Part shown: one piece after another, positions 6,485 through 25,859 of the stretch
Numbering within the stretch: the first letter of the stretch is position 1
How the letters are laid out: each line of letters begins with the position of its first letter
Origin: Deltaproteobacteria bacterium
GTDB taxonomy: Bacteria; Desulfobacterota; JACPFL01
Length of the DNA stretch: 45,953 nucleotides
Assembly (NCBI GenBank): GCA_016183025.1
Contig: JACPFL010000141.1
Span: 1-45,953, forward strand
Direction: 5' to 3'
Translations under genes and position numbers: made by a program
The notes under the pieces: generated by a model
The model's database searches: none
Seen by the model: only the letters and a program-made list of their open reading frames with translations
Told to the model about the DNA's origin: nothing

Positions 6485-8263
6485 CTAGATCGCCTCCAGC
6501 TCCTCGGCCACCTGCTGACGGCGGGCCAGGCGCGCATAGAGCCCCCCGCGGGCCAGCAGGGCCTGGTGGGTCCCCTGTTCCACGATCCGGCCGTCCTCCA
6601 GGACCACGATGAGGTCGGCGTCACGCACGGCCGAGATCCGGTGGGAGACGACCAGGGCGGTGCGGCCGGCCATGAAGGTCTCCAGCCGCTGCAGGATGCG
6701 CGCCTCGGTCTCGGCGTCCACGCTGGACAGGGCGTCGTCGAGGATCAGGATGCGGGGATCGGTGGCCACGGCGCGGGCGATGGCCGCCCGCTGCTTCTGC
6801 CCGCCGGAGAGTGTCACCCCGCGCTCCCCCACGACGGTGTCAAGCCCCTGAGGGAGGAGCTCCAGGTCCTTGAACAGGTCGGCGACCCTGGCCGCGTGCA
6901 CGACCGGGTCGGCCTCGCCCGCGTGCGCGCCGTTGGCGCCGTCCCGGAGGCCGATGGCGATGTTCTCCCGCAGGGTGGCCGAGAAGAGGAAGGCCTCCTG
7001 TGGAACGTATCCGATGGCGTGCCGGAGCACCGGCAGGGGGAGCCGGCGGGTGTCGGTCCCGTCGAGCAGCACCTGGCCGGCCGTGGGATCGTACAGGCGC
7101 GCGATCAGGGCGAGGAGCGTGCTCTTCCCCGACCCCGTCGGCCCGACCACCGCCACGCGCTGCCCGGGGCGGATCGTCAGGGTGATCCCCCGCAGCACCC
7201 GCGGGTCGCCGTCCCCATCGCCGGGGGCCCGGTAGGCGAAGGAGACGTCCCGGAACTCGATCGCCCCCTGCAGCGTCCGGACGGGGGCCGGGTCAGGCGG
7301 GTCGGCGATGGCCGGCTCGGTCCGGAGGAGCTCGAAGACCCGCTGGGCCGAGACCCCGCTGCGCTGCACGAGGTTCGTGATCCAGCCGATCGCGATCGTC
7401 GGCCAGACGAGCATGGCCAGGTAGCCGTTGAACGCGACGTAGGTGCCCAGGGTCAGCCGTCCGGCGATGACCTCGAGCCCGCCCAGCCACAGGACGATCA
7501 CCGCCCCCAGCCCGCCGACCAGGCCGATCAGCGGGTGGAAGAAGCCCTCGGCCCGGGCCAGGGCGAGGTTCCGGGCCACGTAGGTCTCGTTGAGGGCCGC
7601 GAAGACCTCCGTCTCGCGCGCCTCCTGGGCGTACGCCTTCACCACGCGGATCCCCGAGATGTTCTCCTGGACTGCCGTGGTGAGGCGGTCGAGCTGCTCC
7701 TGCACGGCCTGGTACAGCCGGTGGACCACCACGTTGGACCGCTGGACCGCCAGGAAGAGGAGCGGGAGCGGGAGCAGGGCGAAGGCGGTGAGGCGGGCGT
7801 CGAGCAGCAGCATCAGGGTGATGGTGGAGGTGTAGATGACCACGGTGTTCAGCAGGTGCATGCACCCGAAGCCCAGCACCGAACGGATGGTGTGGAGGTC
7901 CTGGGTAGCCCGAGCCATCAGCTCGCCGGTCCGCATGCGGGTGTAGAAGGCGGCCGGCAGGCGCTCGAGGTGGGCGAACAGGGCGTTGCGCAGGTCGTAC
8001 TCGATGTCGCGCCCCATCCCCACCAGGCAGAGCCTCGCCGCGAAGCGGAAGCCCCCCTGGGCGGCGGTGGCGGCCACGAGGAGCAGGGCATACCGGAGGA
8101 GGCGGGGCGCCTGCACGCCCACCCGCATGTGGTCGATGGCCTCCTTGAGCAGCCACGGGATCGCCATGGCCAGGGCGTTGGTGACGAGCAGACAGAGGAT
8201 GCCGACCACGAGCCGCCGACGGTAACGGAGGACGAAGGGGAGAAGGTCTCTCAGGGCATGCAT
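6485..8263 (-). CDS. Heterodimeric ABC exporter, degenerate-site subunit (MdlA/TM287-like)
   Basis: A 592-residue half-transporter with N-terminal membrane helices (about 10-300) and an ATPase domain: Walker A GPTGSGKS (374-381), signature LSGGQ (485-489), and Walker B LILDD (506-510), where Asp510 replaces the catalytic Glu. With the LSVGQ partner this is the standard asymmetric arrangement of heterodimeric exporters, with one hydrolytic and one degenerate nucleotide site. I chose the ATG at 8263 (AGGAGAGG upstream); the 50-residue in-frame extension to 8413 is low in complexity and overlaps the tatA promoter. First gene of a two-gene minus-strand operon. Confidence 0.88.
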   Translation of the reverse strand: MHALRDLLPFVLRYRRRLVVGILCLLVTNALAMAIPWLLKEAIDHMRVGVQAPRLLRYALLLVAATAAQGGFRFAARLCLVGMGRDIEYDLRNALFAHLERLPAAFYTRMRTGELMARATQDLHTIRSVLGFGCMHLLNTVVIYTSTITLMLLLDARLTAFALLPLPLLFLAVQRSNVVVHRLYQAVQEQLDRLTTAVQENISGIRVVKAYAQEARETEVFAALNETYVARNLALARAEGFFHPLIGLVGGLGAVIVLWLGGLEVIAGRLTLGTYVAFNGYLAMLVWPTIAIGWITNLVQRSGVSAQRVFELLRTEPAIADPPDPAPVRTLQGAIEFRDVSFAYRAPGDGDGDPRVLRGITLTIRPGQRVAVVGPTGSGKSTLLALIARLYDPTAGQVLLDGTDTRRLPLPVLRHAIGYVPQEAFLFSATLRENIAIGLRDGANGAHAGEADPVVHAARVADLFKDLELLPQGLDTVVGERGVTLSGGQKQRAAIARAVATDPRILILDDALSSVDAETEARILQRLETFMAGRTALVVSHRISAVRDADLIVVLEDGRIVEQGTHQALLARGGLYARLARRQQVAEELEAI

Positions 8264-18379: not shown

Positions 18380-20044
18380 CTAGGGCGTCGAGGGGGTGGG
18401 ACGCACCTCGCCGGCCGTTCGGCCGCCGAGCGCGGATGGGCCATCGGGGGCCGGCGCCTGACCCTTGCGGATCGTGGTCCGGATGAGCCAGCGCAGGATC
18501 GTGCTCCGGTTGGTCCCCTCGAGCAGCGCTGCCAGGTTTTCATAGATCGTCGGGTCTTCAATCAGCCCGCGCAGCGTGCCGTCCCCGTGGGCCAGGTTCC
18601 CCGCCACCTCCTTCAGGTCGCGTGACGCTGCCTGCAGGTTGGCCACCAGCTCCTTCGACTGCCGGAGCTGCTGGCCCAGCTCCTCAAGCCCCTCGGTGGC
18701 CCGGCGCAGGCGTCCGGTGATCTCCTCGCCGAGCTTCGGGTCGAGCAGCGCTGGCAGGAGCCCCTCGCCACGCGTCAGGCGGGCTGCCGTCTCCCGCAGC
18801 GCCTGGGAGGTCTCGAGCAGCTCCTGGGGGATCGCCTTGTAGCGCGGGTCCTGCAGCAGCGCGGGCAAGAGCCCCTCCCCCTGGCGAAGCTGGGTGGCGA
18901 CCTGGGCGACCTGGTCGGCCGCGCGGCCAAAGGCGGCCACCGCCTGCTCACCCTGCCGCAGCACCTGGCTGACCTCCCCCGCCAGCTCCCCGCTCTGGCG
19001 CACGGCCCGGCCGACCTCGCCCACCACGCCCTCGGCCTGGCGGGCCACCCGCCCCACTTCGCTGAGCATCGCCTCCCCCTGGCGGGCCGCCCGACCGACC
19101 TGCGCGACCACCTCCCCGCTCTGCTGGGCCGCACGGGCCAGATCGGCCACGGCGCGGCCCCCCTGCTCGTCATAGAGGAGCGCATGAGCCGCGCCACGGC
19201 CCTGCTCGAGCTGGAGCAGGGCCCGGTTGAGCGTGCTCACCCCCTGGTCCACCTGGGCGAGGACACGCCCCACCTGGGCCGCCCCCCTCTCGATGTCGCC
19301 TGTGGCCCGCGCCAGCCCGCGAGCCACCTCCACCAGGTCGTCGGCGGCCGCGCGGTACCGGGGCTCCCGCAGCAGGGCCGGCAGCAACCCCTGGCCCTGC
19401 TCGACCTCGCGCGCCGCCTGCGCCACGGCCCGGGAGGCCCGGGACAGGTGCTCCACCAGCCGCGCCTGGTCGAGCTGGGTGGCCACCCGGTTCAGGGCCT
19501 GCATCGTGCGGACCAGCCCGTCCTGGACCTCGGGGCGGCCCAGCGAGGTCAGGGCCCGGTCCAGGCTCTCCGTCACCCGGCCGGCCCCTTCGAGCAGACT
19601 CTCCGCGCGGCGGACCAGGCGCGTGTAGTCCGTCGACTCCGCGGTCTTCAGGGTCGCGCCGGGGGAGAGAACAGGCCGGGCCGGAGTGCCCAGGGTCACC
19701 TCCACGTACTTGTCCCCAAGCAGGCCCAGCGTCTCGATCCGGGCAACCGAATCGTTGCGGATCCGCGGCTGCACCCGCTCGTCCACCTTGAGCTCCACCC
19801 GGATCTGGCGCCTGGCAGGATCGGCCGGGAAGGCGACCCGGTGAACCCGCCCCACCGTCAGGCCGGCCAGCTTGACCGGAGCCCCCTCGAAGAGGCCCCC
19901 GATATTGTCGAAGTCGGCGAACAGGCTGTAGTAGGGCTGGAACAGCTGGGAACGCTCGCTCAGGGCCACGATGGCGCCCATGAAGGCCAAGAGGGCCAGG
20001 AAGACGAAGATGCCGACCCGGAACTCCGGGGCCTTCCCGATCAT
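18380..20044 (-). CDS. mlaD: Long MlaD/MCE protein with tandem helical repeats
   Basis: A 554-residue membrane-anchored MCE protein of lipid transport. One N-terminal helix (about 9-28) anchors it in the inner membrane; the MCE domain follows (about 38-135: LFEGAPVKLAGLTVGRV, then LLGDKYVEVTLG). The remaining 400 residues are predicted helical with two repeat types: a motif near GLLPALL-DPRY (about 217-230, 388-402, 426-437; weaker at 282-292 and 487-501), and five consecutive 14-residue units ending in a form of GRxARQxE (311-380). Normal short MlaD is about 150-180 residues. The ATG at 20044 (GGAGGGAGATC upstream) is preferred to 20074. Last gene of Mla locus 1, 53 bp after mlaF. Confidence 0.9.
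   Translation of the reverse strand: MIGKAPEFRVGIFVFLALLAFMGAIVALSERSQLFQPYYSLFADFDNIGGLFEGAPVKLAGLTVGRVHRVAFPADPARRQIRVELKVDERVQPRIRNDSVARIETLGLLGDKYVEVTLGTPARPVLSPGATLKTAESTDYTRLVRRAESLLEGAGRVTESLDRALTSLGRPEVQDGLVRTMQALNRVATQLDQARLVEHLSRASRAVAQAAREVEQGQGLLPALLREPRYRAAADDLVEVARGLARATGDIERGAAQVGRVLAQVDQGVSTLNRALLQLEQGRGAAHALLYDEQGGRAVADLARAAQQSGEVVAQVGRAARQGEAMLSEVGRVARQAEGVVGEVGRAVRQSGELAGEVSQVLRQGEQAVAAFGRAADQVAQVATQLRQGEGLLPALLQDPRYKAIPQELLETSQALRETAARLTRGEGLLPALLDPKLGEEITGRLRRATEGLEELGQQLRQSKELVANLQAASRDLKEVAGNLAHGDGTLRGLIEDPTIYENLAALLEGTNRSTILRWLIRTTIRKGQAPAPDGPSALGGRTAGEVRPTPSTP
18905..19114 (-). repeat. Five tandem 14-codon repeats inside the long mlaD gene
   Basis: Residues 311-380 divide into five 14-residue units: EVVAQVGRAARQGE, AMLSEVGRVARQAE, GVVGEVGRAVRQSG, ELAGEVSQVLRQGE and QAVAAFGRAADQVA. 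A related unit may precede them at 297-310. At the DNA level the 42-bp units are similar but not identical. The pattern suggests a long coiled-coil rod. Confidence 0.8.
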
Positions 20045-20097
20045 GATCTCCCTCCTTTCTGGGCAGCTCGGCAAGTCGGCGGGCCGCCCAGGCTCGG

Positions 20098-20832
20098 CTA
20101 GCGGCGCACGCCGCCCAGGAAGTCCTGCACCTCCTGCAGCTCCGACCGCCGGATCTCGTCCGGGGGGCCGATGGCGGCGATCCGGCCTTCCGCCAGCACG
20201 GCCACCCGGTCTGAGATCATGAACGCGCAGGGCAGGTCGTGGGTGACCACCACCGCACTCCGTCCGCCCTGCTGCTTGAGGGTGAGGATCAGCTCGCTGA
20301 CCATGCGGGCGTTGGCCGGGTCCAGCCCCGCAGTGGGCTCATCGTACAGGACGACCTCGGGGGCCAGGGCCAGGGCGCGGGCGATCCCCACCCGCTTCTT
20401 CATGCCTCCGCTCAGGGCCGCGGGCTCATACGCCTCGATTCCCGGGAGACCGACAGTCGTAAGCCGGTCAGCGACCCGGGCGCGAATCTCCTCCTCCGGC
20501 CATCGCGTGTGCTCGCGCATGGGGTAGGCCACGTTCTCGCCGACGCTCAGCGAGTCGAACAGGGCCGCCCCCTGGAAGACGAAGCCCATGCGCCGGCGGA
20601 CCGGGACCAGCGCGCCCTCATCCAGGAGGACGATATCCTCGCCCAGGACGCGGATGGAACCGCGGTCGGGCTTGATCAGGCCGGCGATCAGACGGAGCAG
20701 CACGCTCTTACCCGCTCCGCTGCCGCCGAAGATGCTCAGCGTCTCGTTGGGCTCGACCGCCAGGCCCAGGCCGCGCAGGACCTCGCGGCCGTCAAAGCCC
20801 CTCCAGACGTCCACCAGCTCGATGACGGGCAT
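20098..20832 (-). CDS. mlaF: Mla ABC transporter ATP-binding protein MlaF (locus 1)
   Basis: A 244-residue cytoplasmic ATPase that powers MCE lipid transport. Walker A GGSGAGKS (about 36-43), the MlaF-type segment FQGAALFDSLSVGENVAYPM after the Q-loop, signature LSGGMKKR, Walker B VVLYDEPTAGLDP, and the H-loop in VVTHDL. It lies 13 bp after mlaE and 53 bp before mlaD on the minus strand. The C-terminal tail (SELQEVQDFLGGV) matches the part of MlaF that contacts partner subunits. No MlaB gene is seen nearby. Confidence 0.92.
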   Translation of the reverse strand: MPVIELVDVWRGFDGREVLRGLGLAVEPNETLSIFGGSGAGKSVLLRLIAGLIKPDRGSIRVLGEDIVLLDEGALVPVRRRMGFVFQGAALFDSLSVGENVAYPMREHTRWPEEEIRARVADRLTTVGLPGIEAYEPAALSGGMKKRVGIARALALAPEVVLYDEPTAGLDPANARMVSELILTLKQQGGRSAVVVTHDLPCAFMISDRVAVLAEGRIAAIGPPDEIRRSELQEVQDFLGGVRR

Positions 20833-20845
20833 GCGGATCCGACCC

Positions 20846-21613
20846 TCAGAGGAGGAAGAAGAGCTTGGTCAGGAAGAAGTCCGAGACGATGACGCTGATC
20901 GAGGCGGTGACCACCGTGGCCGTGGTCGCCCGCCCCAGCCCCTCGGTCCCCCCCGTGGCGCCGAGGCCGTTGTGGCAGGCGATGAGCGAGATGATCAGCC
21001 CGAAGACCACGGTCTTGCTGAGGCCGCTCATGAGGTCATGCAGGACCACCCACTGGGTGATGCTGTTCAGGTAGAGCACCGAGTCGATCCGGAGCTCGCT
21101 CAGGGCGATGAACATGCCCCCCAAAATCCCCAGGACATCCGCGATCACCGTGAGGAGCGGAAAGACGACGAGGGCCGCCGCCACCTTCGGGACCACGAGT
21201 CGCTTGATGTAGTTGGCGCCGATCACCCGGAGCGCGTCGATCTGCTCGGTCGCCTTCATGGAGCCAAGCTCCGCCGTGATCCCCGAGCCCACCTTCCCCC
21301 CCACCAGCAGGGCGGTCAGGACCGGCCCCAGCTCGCGAAACACGGAGAGGGCCACCACCGGGCCGACGTAGGACTTGGCGCCGAACTTCCCCAGGTAGTA
21401 GGAGGTCTGCAGCACCAGGACCATCCCGGTGAACAGGGCCGCCAGGTTGGCCACGGTCAGCGAGCTCACACCCATCACGTCGATCTCCCGGAGGATCAGG
21501 CGGAGCTGGTACGGGGGCGTGACGCCATTGCGGACCACCTGGACCAGCAACAAGGCCAGCCCCCCGAGGTAGCTGGTCATCTCGCGCAGGCGCTGCAGGA
21601 GGAGCGTGCCCAC
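20846..21613 (-). CDS. mlaE: Mla ABC transporter permease MlaE (locus 1)
   Basis: A 255-residue inner-membrane permease. It shows the family's core: SSLTVANLAALFTGMVLVLQ, FRELGPVLTALLVGGKVGSG and ITAELGSMKATEQIDALRVI. About five helices and an N-terminal interfacial helix are visible. The GTG at 21613 follows GGAGG by seven bases and lies two bases after the lipoprotein stop; upstream in-frame residues are translation of the lipoprotein gene. With MlaF and the long MlaD it forms a complete MCE core complex in which MlaD rings sit on the periplasmic side. Confidence 0.92.
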   Translation of the reverse strand: MGTLLLQRLREMTSYLGGLALLLVQVVRNGVTPPYQLRLILREIDVMGVSSLTVANLAALFTGMVLVLQTSYYLGKFGAKSYVGPVVALSVFRELGPVLTALLVGGKVGSGITAELGSMKATEQIDALRVIGANYIKRLVVPKVAAALVVFPLLTVIADVLGILGGMFIALSELRIDSVLYLNSITQWVVLHDLMSGLSKTVVFGLIISLIACHNGLGATGGTEGLGRATTATVVTASISVIVSDFFLTKLFFLL

Positions 21614-21615
21614 CC

Positions 21616-22125
21616 TCACCCCTCCGGGCCGAGCAGCCGGAAGCTCTGCACCACGGCCTCGAAGGCCGCGCTCCCCTCCGGCGGCCCGTTCGGGTTGACG
21701 AAGTAGACCAGGTCGTAGACGCATCCCCGGGCCCGGATGATGAAGGCCTGGACCTCGAGGGGCTGGCCTTCATAGCGGCCGCGGGCCAGCGTGTACAGGG
21801 CCGGGACCCCGTGCAGGCGCACCTCCTCCTGCCGCAGCACCACCTTATCGGTCAGGCCAATGAGGAGGTGGCGGGCGAGCAGGCGGGAGGGACGGCGGGG
21901 CGGGTTTCCCTCGCAGGTGGCATTCACCAGCAGCCCGGCCGCCCCGCTGGGATGGCGGAACGCCAGGTCCACGTCCGAGCCAGGCAGACGCTCCCAGGAA
22001 CCAGTTGGGAGGGCCACTTGGAACCCTTTGTCAGGATGGACATACAGGCCGTCGCGGATCCGCGCCCCGGCACACCCTGCCAGGCTGGCAGCCAGGCAGA
22101 CCCCGAGGGGGAACCAGCGGCACAT
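21616..22125 (-). CDS. Lipoprotein of unknown function upstream of mlaE
   Basis: A 169-residue protein with a lipoprotein signal peptide (LGVCLAASLAGC; lipidated Cys18). The mature part starts with YVHPDKGFQVALPTGSWERL, the style of small secreted PsbP/DUF1795-like domains, and includes Cys at about 70 and 135. I recognise no firm family. It is the first gene of Mla locus 1, two bases from mlaE, so it may be an accessory of this lipid transporter, perhaps in the place taken elsewhere by MlaA or MlaC. That role is inferred from position only. Confidence 0.75.
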   Translation of the reverse strand: MCRWFPLGVCLAASLAGCAGARIRDGLYVHPDKGFQVALPTGSWERLPGSDVDLAFRHPSGAAGLLVNATCEGNPPRRPSRLLARHLLIGLTDKVVLRQEEVRLHGVPALYTLARGRYEGQPLEVQAFIIRARGCVYDLVYFVNPNGPPEGSAAFEAVVQSFRLLGPEG

Positions 22126-24098: not shown

Positions 24099-25859
24099 CT
24101 ACCGGATCTCGGCCACCGCCCGGCCGGTGGCGTGGTCGAGGTCGGCCAGGGCCAGGTTATAATTATAGATCGCGCGGAAGTTCTCGGCCCGCATCTTGGC
24201 GAAGGCGAGGACCGCGTCGGCCAGATCCTTGGCCTCGCCGATCCCGAAGTCCACGTTGGCCGCCGCCGCCACCATCCACTTCCGCGCGTTCATGTACGCA
24301 TCCTCGGAGGCCTGGATGTTCTTGCGGGCCTCCAGCAGCTCGAGGTAGGCCTTGCGGACCTGCAGCGGGATGCCCGTCTCCGCGAACTGCTTGAGCTGCT
24401 CCACCCGGAGGTGATCCGCCTCCTTCTCCCGGACCCGCCCCCGCGTGATCCCGAAGTCGATGTTGAGCTTGAACCCCAGCACCGCGCCGGCCTCGCGCGT
24501 GTTGAACTCGTCAGGGACGAACGGGTTGTCGATGACCGTGCGGTTGGGGGCGTTGCCGTAGTTGCCGCGCGCGGCGATGAAGAACTGGGGGTAGAAGTTA
24601 CTGCGCTCCGCCTCGATCAGGGCCCGTGTGGCGACCAGCCCCTGGCGCGCCTGCGTCAGCTCCGGCCTGAGCCGCAGGGCCTCGTCCACCTGGGCCTTGA
24701 CGTCGGCCACCGGGCGGGGGTCGGGGAGCAGCCGGGCCTCGGCGGGTTCCACCTCGACGTCCTCGGGCAGGTTCAGGAACGCCCGCAGGGCCGCACGGGC
24801 CAGCTCCAGCCCCTTTTCGGCCTCGTTCCGGTTCCGCCGGACCTCGGCCGCGAAGGTGCGCAGCTTGTGCAGGTCCACCTCGTCGGCCTCCGGCGAGCCC
24901 CGCCGCAGGAACCCCTCGGTCTTGGTGATCTGCTGATCGAGCTGGTCCTGGATCTCCAGGATCAGGTTCTGCACCTCCTTGGCCAGCAGGAGTCCATAGT
25001 AGATCTGCTTGGTCCGCAGGATCACGTCCTGGACCTTCTCGTCGACCTTCGCCTCCTGGACCAGGATGTTGCGCTCGGCCGCCTCCCGGAACCCGCTGAT
25101 CTTGCCAAAGGTGTACAGGGGCTGGATCAGGGTGATCGTGATCTTCTCGAAGGCGTCCAGCCCCGAGATGCGGGTCTTCGTGTCGGGGGAGGAGACCTGG
25201 TCGCCCCGGGCCTGGGGTGAGGGGCCGAGCAGCCCAATCGCTTCCCCCTGAGGGAGGCGCGCCGAGTCGGCCTGCTGCTTCTTGGCCTTGGCGGCCTCCA
25301 CCTGCATCCGGACCTCGCGGACCTCGGGGCTCACGTTCACGGCCCGGCGCACCGCGTCCCGCAGGGTGATGATCACGCGCGGCGGCCCCGGGGCCTGGCC
25401 GCGGGCCGCCCCGGCCCCGCCGGCGGCCAGGAATCCAGCCAGCAGCACCAGCACCCTTCGCCCTCGCCTGCGCTGCACCATGGCTCGTCCCCCCCCCGGC
25501 CTGATGGGCGTCTCGGAGCCGCCCGGGCTCAGCCGGACGTACTTCTCCCCGATCAGCCCCTTGCTCCGGACCGAGGCGATCACGTCCTCCTGGAGCTTGA
25601 CGTCCTGCCGGATGAACATCCGGACGCGGGCCGCATACTCGTGCAGGGTGATGGCCTCCACCCGGCCCACCTCCACGCCGGCGATCTCCACGGCAGCCCC
25701 GGGCTTGAGCCCGGCCACGGTGGCGAAATCAGCGTAGACGCGGTAGCCCGCCCTGCCGACCACCTCCAGCCTGCCCAGCCGGATGACCAGGTAGCCCAGG
25801 GCCAGCAGCCCGACCAGCACGAAGACCCCGACGACAAGTTCCACGGTGGCCTGCTTCAT
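24099..25859 (-). CDS. MlaD-TolC continuous reading frame (MCE domain fused to outer-membrane efflux protein)
   Basis: One frame of 586 residues holds two proteins. Residues 1-125 are an MlaD: membrane helix (5-27) and MCE domain (AGLKPGAAVEIAGVEVGRVE, then GLIGEKYVRLSPGG), lacking the last ~25 residues usual in MlaD. Residue 127 (Met, DNA 25481) begins a second export signal (RRRGRRVLVLLAGFLAAGGA) followed by a 430-residue TolC/OEP protein with two similar halves (ITLRDAVRRAVNVSPEVREV, and EALRLRPELTQARQGLVATR). The junction lies at a run of nine G (minus strand), which also resembles a ribosome-binding site six bases before the inner ATG. It may be a true fusion, two overlapping products, or an indel in the run. 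Confidence 0.85.
   Translation of the reverse strand: MKQATVELVVGVFVLVGLLALGYLVIRLGRLEVVGRAGYRVYADFATVAGLKPGAAVEIAGVEVGRVEAITLHEYAARVRMFIRQDVKLQEDVIASVRSKGLIGEKYVRLSPGGSETPIRPGGGRAMVQRRRGRRVLVLLAGFLAAGGAGAARGQAPGPPRVIITLRDAVRRAVNVSPEVREVRMQVEAAKAKKQQADSARLPQGEAIGLLGPSPQARGDQVSSPDTKTRISGLDAFEKITITLIQPLYTFGKISGFREAAERNILVQEAKVDEKVQDVILRTKQIYYGLLLAKEVQNLILEIQDQLDQQITKTEGFLRRGSPEADEVDLHKLRTFAAEVRRNRNEAEKGLELARAALRAFLNLPEDVEVEPAEARLLPDPRPVADVKAQVDEALRLRPELTQARQGLVATRALIEAERSNFYPQFFIAARGNYGNAPNRTVIDNPFVPDEFNTREAGAVLGFKLNIDFGITRGRVREKEADHLRVEQLKQFAETGIPLQVRKAYLELLEARKNIQASEDAYMNARKWMVAAAANVDFGIGEAKDLADAVLAFAKMRAENFRAIYNYNLALADLDHATGRAVAEIR
25489..25497 (-). other. Nine-base homopolymer at the MlaD/TolC junction
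   Basis: C9 on the plus strand (G9 in the gene) ends about eight bases before the inner TolC ATG at 25481. With eight G the MlaD frame would stop about 40 codons later; with ten it would stay open much longer. The run could serve as a ribosome-binding site for tolC or be an assembly or phase-variation hotspot. Confidence 0.7.

Follow-up and report, generated by a model that had tools for sequence, protein, structure and literature searches.

The mlaEFD-tolC locus described here has counterparts among several known systems. The E. coli MlaFEDB-MlaC system has its MlaE, MlaF, MlaD and MlaC domains in common with this locus, and the mla operon of E. coli is not known to contain tolC. In the Negativicutes, the mlaEFD-tolC-tamB operon of Veillonella parvula resembles our locus in carrying tolC directly after mlaEFD; unlike ours, however, V. 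parvula MlaD is an elongated protein of 419 aa with its own beta-barrel (E. coli MlaD has 183 aa), MlaC is lacking, and tolC is a gene distinct from mlaD (PMC10665443). The gene order of our locus, mlaE-mlaF-mlaD-tolC-mlaC, is found in operons of Methylomirabilota, Rokubacteria, Nitrospirota and relatives of Geobacter. Four such operons (L087, L105, L110 and L134) share 59-64% identity with ours in mlaE, 58-64% in mlaF, 54-65% in MlaD, 46-53% in TolC and 49-56% in mlaC. In operons of this type mlaD ends with a tail and a stop codon, whereas both are missing from the locus analysed here, in which mlaD reads directly into tolC. We propose that this continuity is probably a fault of the draft assembly and that the organism itself carries two separate genes.

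Results

The locus lies in a 45,953-nt stretch of DNA, hereafter the window, from a draft metagenome-assembled genome of 308 contigs and 3.68 Mb that is 90% complete. Pfam matches to MlaE, MlaF, MlaD and MlaC occur in order on one strand of the window (Table 1), as expected of an Mla-type phospholipid ABC transporter, and no MlaB was found among the window genes tested. The operon probably serves phospholipid traffic between the membranes. As assembled, the window contains no complete MlaD with the conserved C-terminal tail typical of this operon. Elsewhere in the same genome, neither another copy of mlaD nor one of its tail was found; the genome's one further clear MCE protein has 564 aa (18380-20074). 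A second mlaE/mlaF-like pair accompanies this 564-aa protein beside the mla operon (18380-22125), and a putative lipoprotein ORF (21616-22125) precedes that group.

Table 1 Genes of the mla-tolC operon in the window and the junction between mlaD and tolC
Feature	Position	Strand	Basis
mlaE, permease of the Mla ABC transporter, 256 aa	26635..27405	-	Pfam MlaE PF02405, 1.8e-81
mlaF, ATPase, 248 aa	25884..26630	-	Pfam ABC_tran, 9.8e-33
mlaD without its 3' end: transmembrane anchor and MCE domain, ~124 codons	25488..25859	-	Pfam MlaD 38-113; relatives 146-152 aa
nine-G run, breakpoint: mlaD tail, stop and spacer absent	25489..25497	-	sequence; -78 nt net versus L105/L110
tolC-type outer-membrane efflux protein of 460 aa, complete when read from its own ATG	24099..25481	-	Pfam OEP; alignment; PDB profile match
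mlaC, periplasmic lipid carrier, 219 aa	23411..24070	-	Pfam MlaC, 7.7e-48

The first-pass annotation had described a shortened MlaD running without a stop into a complete TolC with its own signal peptide, and this description held throughout. The minus-strand frame from 25859 to 24099 comprises 586 stop-free codons, with Pfam MlaD matched first, on residues 38-113 (E 3.6e-21), followed by Pfam OEP in two stretches, the best at 392-579 (1.7e-35). Codons 121-127 read CCG GGG GGG GGA CGA GCC ATG, which confirms both the nine-G run at 25497-25489, the point where the MlaD and TolC parts join, and the inner ATG at 25481 (Met127). The run probably doubles as the ribosome-binding site of tolC. Read from Met127, the TolC part is a protein of 460 aa with two OEP repeats and a start that resembles a signal peptide when judged by eye (MVQRRRGRRVLVLLAGFLAAGGAGAARGQA). 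It aligns over its full length with TolC proteins that relatives encode separately (37-41% identity), and a six-sequence TolC profile matches E. coli TolC chains in the PDB over 43-458.

An alignment covering the TolC part, run against 84,980 species genomes, yielded 80 named loci (L087-L166) labelled as Nitrospirota, Methylomirabilota/NC10, Rokubacteria, Geobacter and other Desulfobacterota, and Nitrospinota. The full order mlaE-mlaF-mlaD-tolC-mlaC was present in 70 of them; in most of the rest, the outer genes were absent from the stretch searched. At every one of the 78 loci where mlaD and tolC were both visible side by side, the two were separate genes, and mlaD encoded 146-152 aa with a conserved tail ending in ..RETESAIDIEELISKYIFGKV followed by the stop codon; the sole departure from the strict pattern was a single residue in L109. 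The tail of the Rokubacteria locus L105, for example, reads RIREVEPPVDFEELLSKYIFGKV. These loci thus bear out the earlier remark that the MlaD of the window is short by about 25 residues, as relatives carry at least 23 more and a stop. A shared frame is not unusual in itself: tolC lies in the frame of mlaD at 24 of the 78 loci, with a stop between the genes in each. The locus L134, whose record is labelled Nitrospira japonica, has 45% GC here, which we take to be at odds with the GC content of that species; the name of this metagenome-assembled genome may be wrong.

Of 395 genomes sampled from the window's phylum, the window's own alone gave a match spanning both domains, with no such match listed for the other 394. 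L035, considered as a second fusion on account of its shared frame and an open frame of 648 codons, was rejected, as a TAA lies between its genes. No close relatives came up when genome contigs were searched for the fused sequence, and the window's genome was the sole member of its class among the genomes searched. No report of a fusion was found in the papers examined from the open literature on MlaD with TolC and MCE.

The size of the missing segment could be counted against L105 and L110, two Rokubacteria loci in which MlaD is 63-65% identical to that of the window and tolC lies in the frame of mlaD. In both, 87 nt separate the Gly codon of PNG from the tolC ATG, made up of the 23 codons of the tail, the stop codon and 15 nt of spacer. 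By contrast, only 9 nt (GGA CGA GCC) lie between Gly123, the last MlaD-like codon, and the tolC ATG of the window, a net deficit of 78 nt, or 26 codons, in frame. The absent segment has both its ends in G-rich sequence: the codons for PGG at one end and, at the other, what is presumably the ribosome-binding site.

We then considered G runs in the window and across the draft. The window contains 14 G/C homopolymers of at least seven bases, of which the longest, and the single run of nine, is the one at the join. About 27 separate runs of at least nine bases occur in the whole draft, as against about 360 expected for a random sequence of equal composition, and long G/C runs are therefore rare in it. 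Most of these runs sit in genes that are in frame on both sides, as judged by reading the surroundings of the sites. Several sites nevertheless differ. On contig 39, a UDP-GlcNAc 2-epimerase gene changes frame exactly at a G9 (L169:290-298), with positions 180-269 of PF02350 before it and 270-346 after it. On contig 205, a run of 31 G (6561-6591; L179:1262-1292), probably itself an assembly fault, lies between genes for an S49 peptidase of the sppA type and an HU/IHF protein; sppA reads through the run and has lost its stop, which relatives place within tens of codons. A G11 on contig 2 (L167:1287-1300) directly precedes an NNN gap. In an ABC ATPase gene on contig 40, no ATG in the correct frame precedes the conserved start region; the closest one lies on the far side of a G9 in a different frame. 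The sppA and mlaD genes share a pattern in which the upstream stop is lost at a G-rich ribosome-binding site. Collectively, the faulty genes and the gap are independent signs of assembly trouble at such runs.

Discussion

We infer that the loss at the mlaD/tolC join is an assembly or sequencing deletion in the draft, a reading that we consider probable though by a measured degree. Under this explanation, an ordinary mlaEFD-tolC-mlaC operon would have had about 78 bp dropped from its assembled sequence, comprising the last ~23 codons of mlaD, the stop and the spacer before tolC, so that two G-rich stretches, the Gly-Gly codons in mlaD and the tolC ribosome-binding site, would now abut as one nine-G run. 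The single frame would arise either if tolC already lay in the frame of mlaD or if the loss and the spacing summed to a multiple of three. The separate genes and full tails of the 78 relatives, the restriction of the spanning match to this one genome, the position of the breakpoint at the window's sole G/C run of at least nine, the fragmented and incomplete state of the draft and its faults at other G runs (the epimerase G9, the 31-G run at sppA and the G11 before the gap) all point this way. In Illumina reads, which may not be the platform of this draft, indel errors are documented in homopolymers and rise steeply in long ones (PMC3334598). Such documented errors mostly concern single bases, however, and a loss of 78 bp calls for a mis-join or a real deletion. 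Nor is a G9 alone a mark of error, given that most genes with a G9 are in frame on both sides, and the outcome is exactly in frame, although chance would produce this about one time in three. The first-pass annotation had also offered an insertion or deletion within the run. The run does consist of nine G, and another G9 in the genome coincides with a frame break, but a one-base change cannot be the whole cause because the tail would not fit in whichever frame is read and about 78 bases are absent: a run of eight or ten G would leave the tail missing all the same, whereas in relatives at least 23 codons and a stop occupy this place. As the sole defect it is the least credible of the explanations; a miscount of the run may have occurred in addition to the loss of the segment.

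The principal competitor is a real, recent deletion in this lineage between the two G-rich stretches, which we regard as possible but clearly less probable than a fault of the draft. Deletions between short repeats, G runs among them, are a known type of mutation, the majority of this genome's G9 runs appear correct, and the start, G-rich ribosome-binding site and signal peptide of tolC are all intact. In that case translation of tolC would begin at the ATG at 25481, the G run serving as its ribosome-binding site, and TolC would be exported by its own signal peptide and work normally, while MlaD would be truncated or the read-through product cut at the signal peptide or degraded; one frame would then yield two proteins by an internal start. 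Yet such a deletion would strip the tail that all 78 relatives keep from the genome's only short mlaD. We prefer the artefact to a real deletion because there are other faults at G runs in the draft, one of them, at sppA, with a pattern like that of mlaD. A functional MlaD-TolC fusion, tethering an inner-membrane MCE ring to an outer-membrane channel as the first-pass annotation had envisaged, could draw on the single open frame that holds both domains, on the conserved adjacency of MlaEFD and TolC, and on the transenvelope MlaD with a C-terminal beta-barrel reported in Veillonella (PMC10665443). It is not supported by the comparison with relatives, where mlaD and tolC are separate and of normal length, a finding that the annotation itself had named as a refutation, and where no locus is fused; the conserved MlaD tail is lost from the chain. 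A working tether is unlikely because the MCE ring is a hexamer whereas TolC is a trimer, and because the linker is short and followed by a signal peptide: no dedicated linker is present, as the MCE match ends about 13 residues before Met127 and the signal peptide follows, which in its normal form would give the chain either an additional membrane segment or an internal cleavage site. We therefore hold a functional fusion to be very improbable, and equally so the variant of a real, fixed deletion in which some chains, made as full-length MlaD-TolC, physically couple the MCE ring to the outer-membrane channel.

In summary, the continuous frame is best read with caution, as G runs in this genome are unreliable. 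If the deletion were real, TolC would be made separately or freed by signal peptidase, and MlaD would lack a tail conserved across the group. If the fusion were true, it would be direct genetic evidence that the ring of MlaD is a docking site for TolC-type channels, a question that the wide occurrence of mlaEFD beside tolC brings up. The conservation of the five-gene operon in loci of Nitrospirota, Methylomirabilota, Rokubacteria and Desulfobacterota suggests that, outside the Negativicutes, Mla and a TolC-type channel are functionally linked without any fusion of the two.
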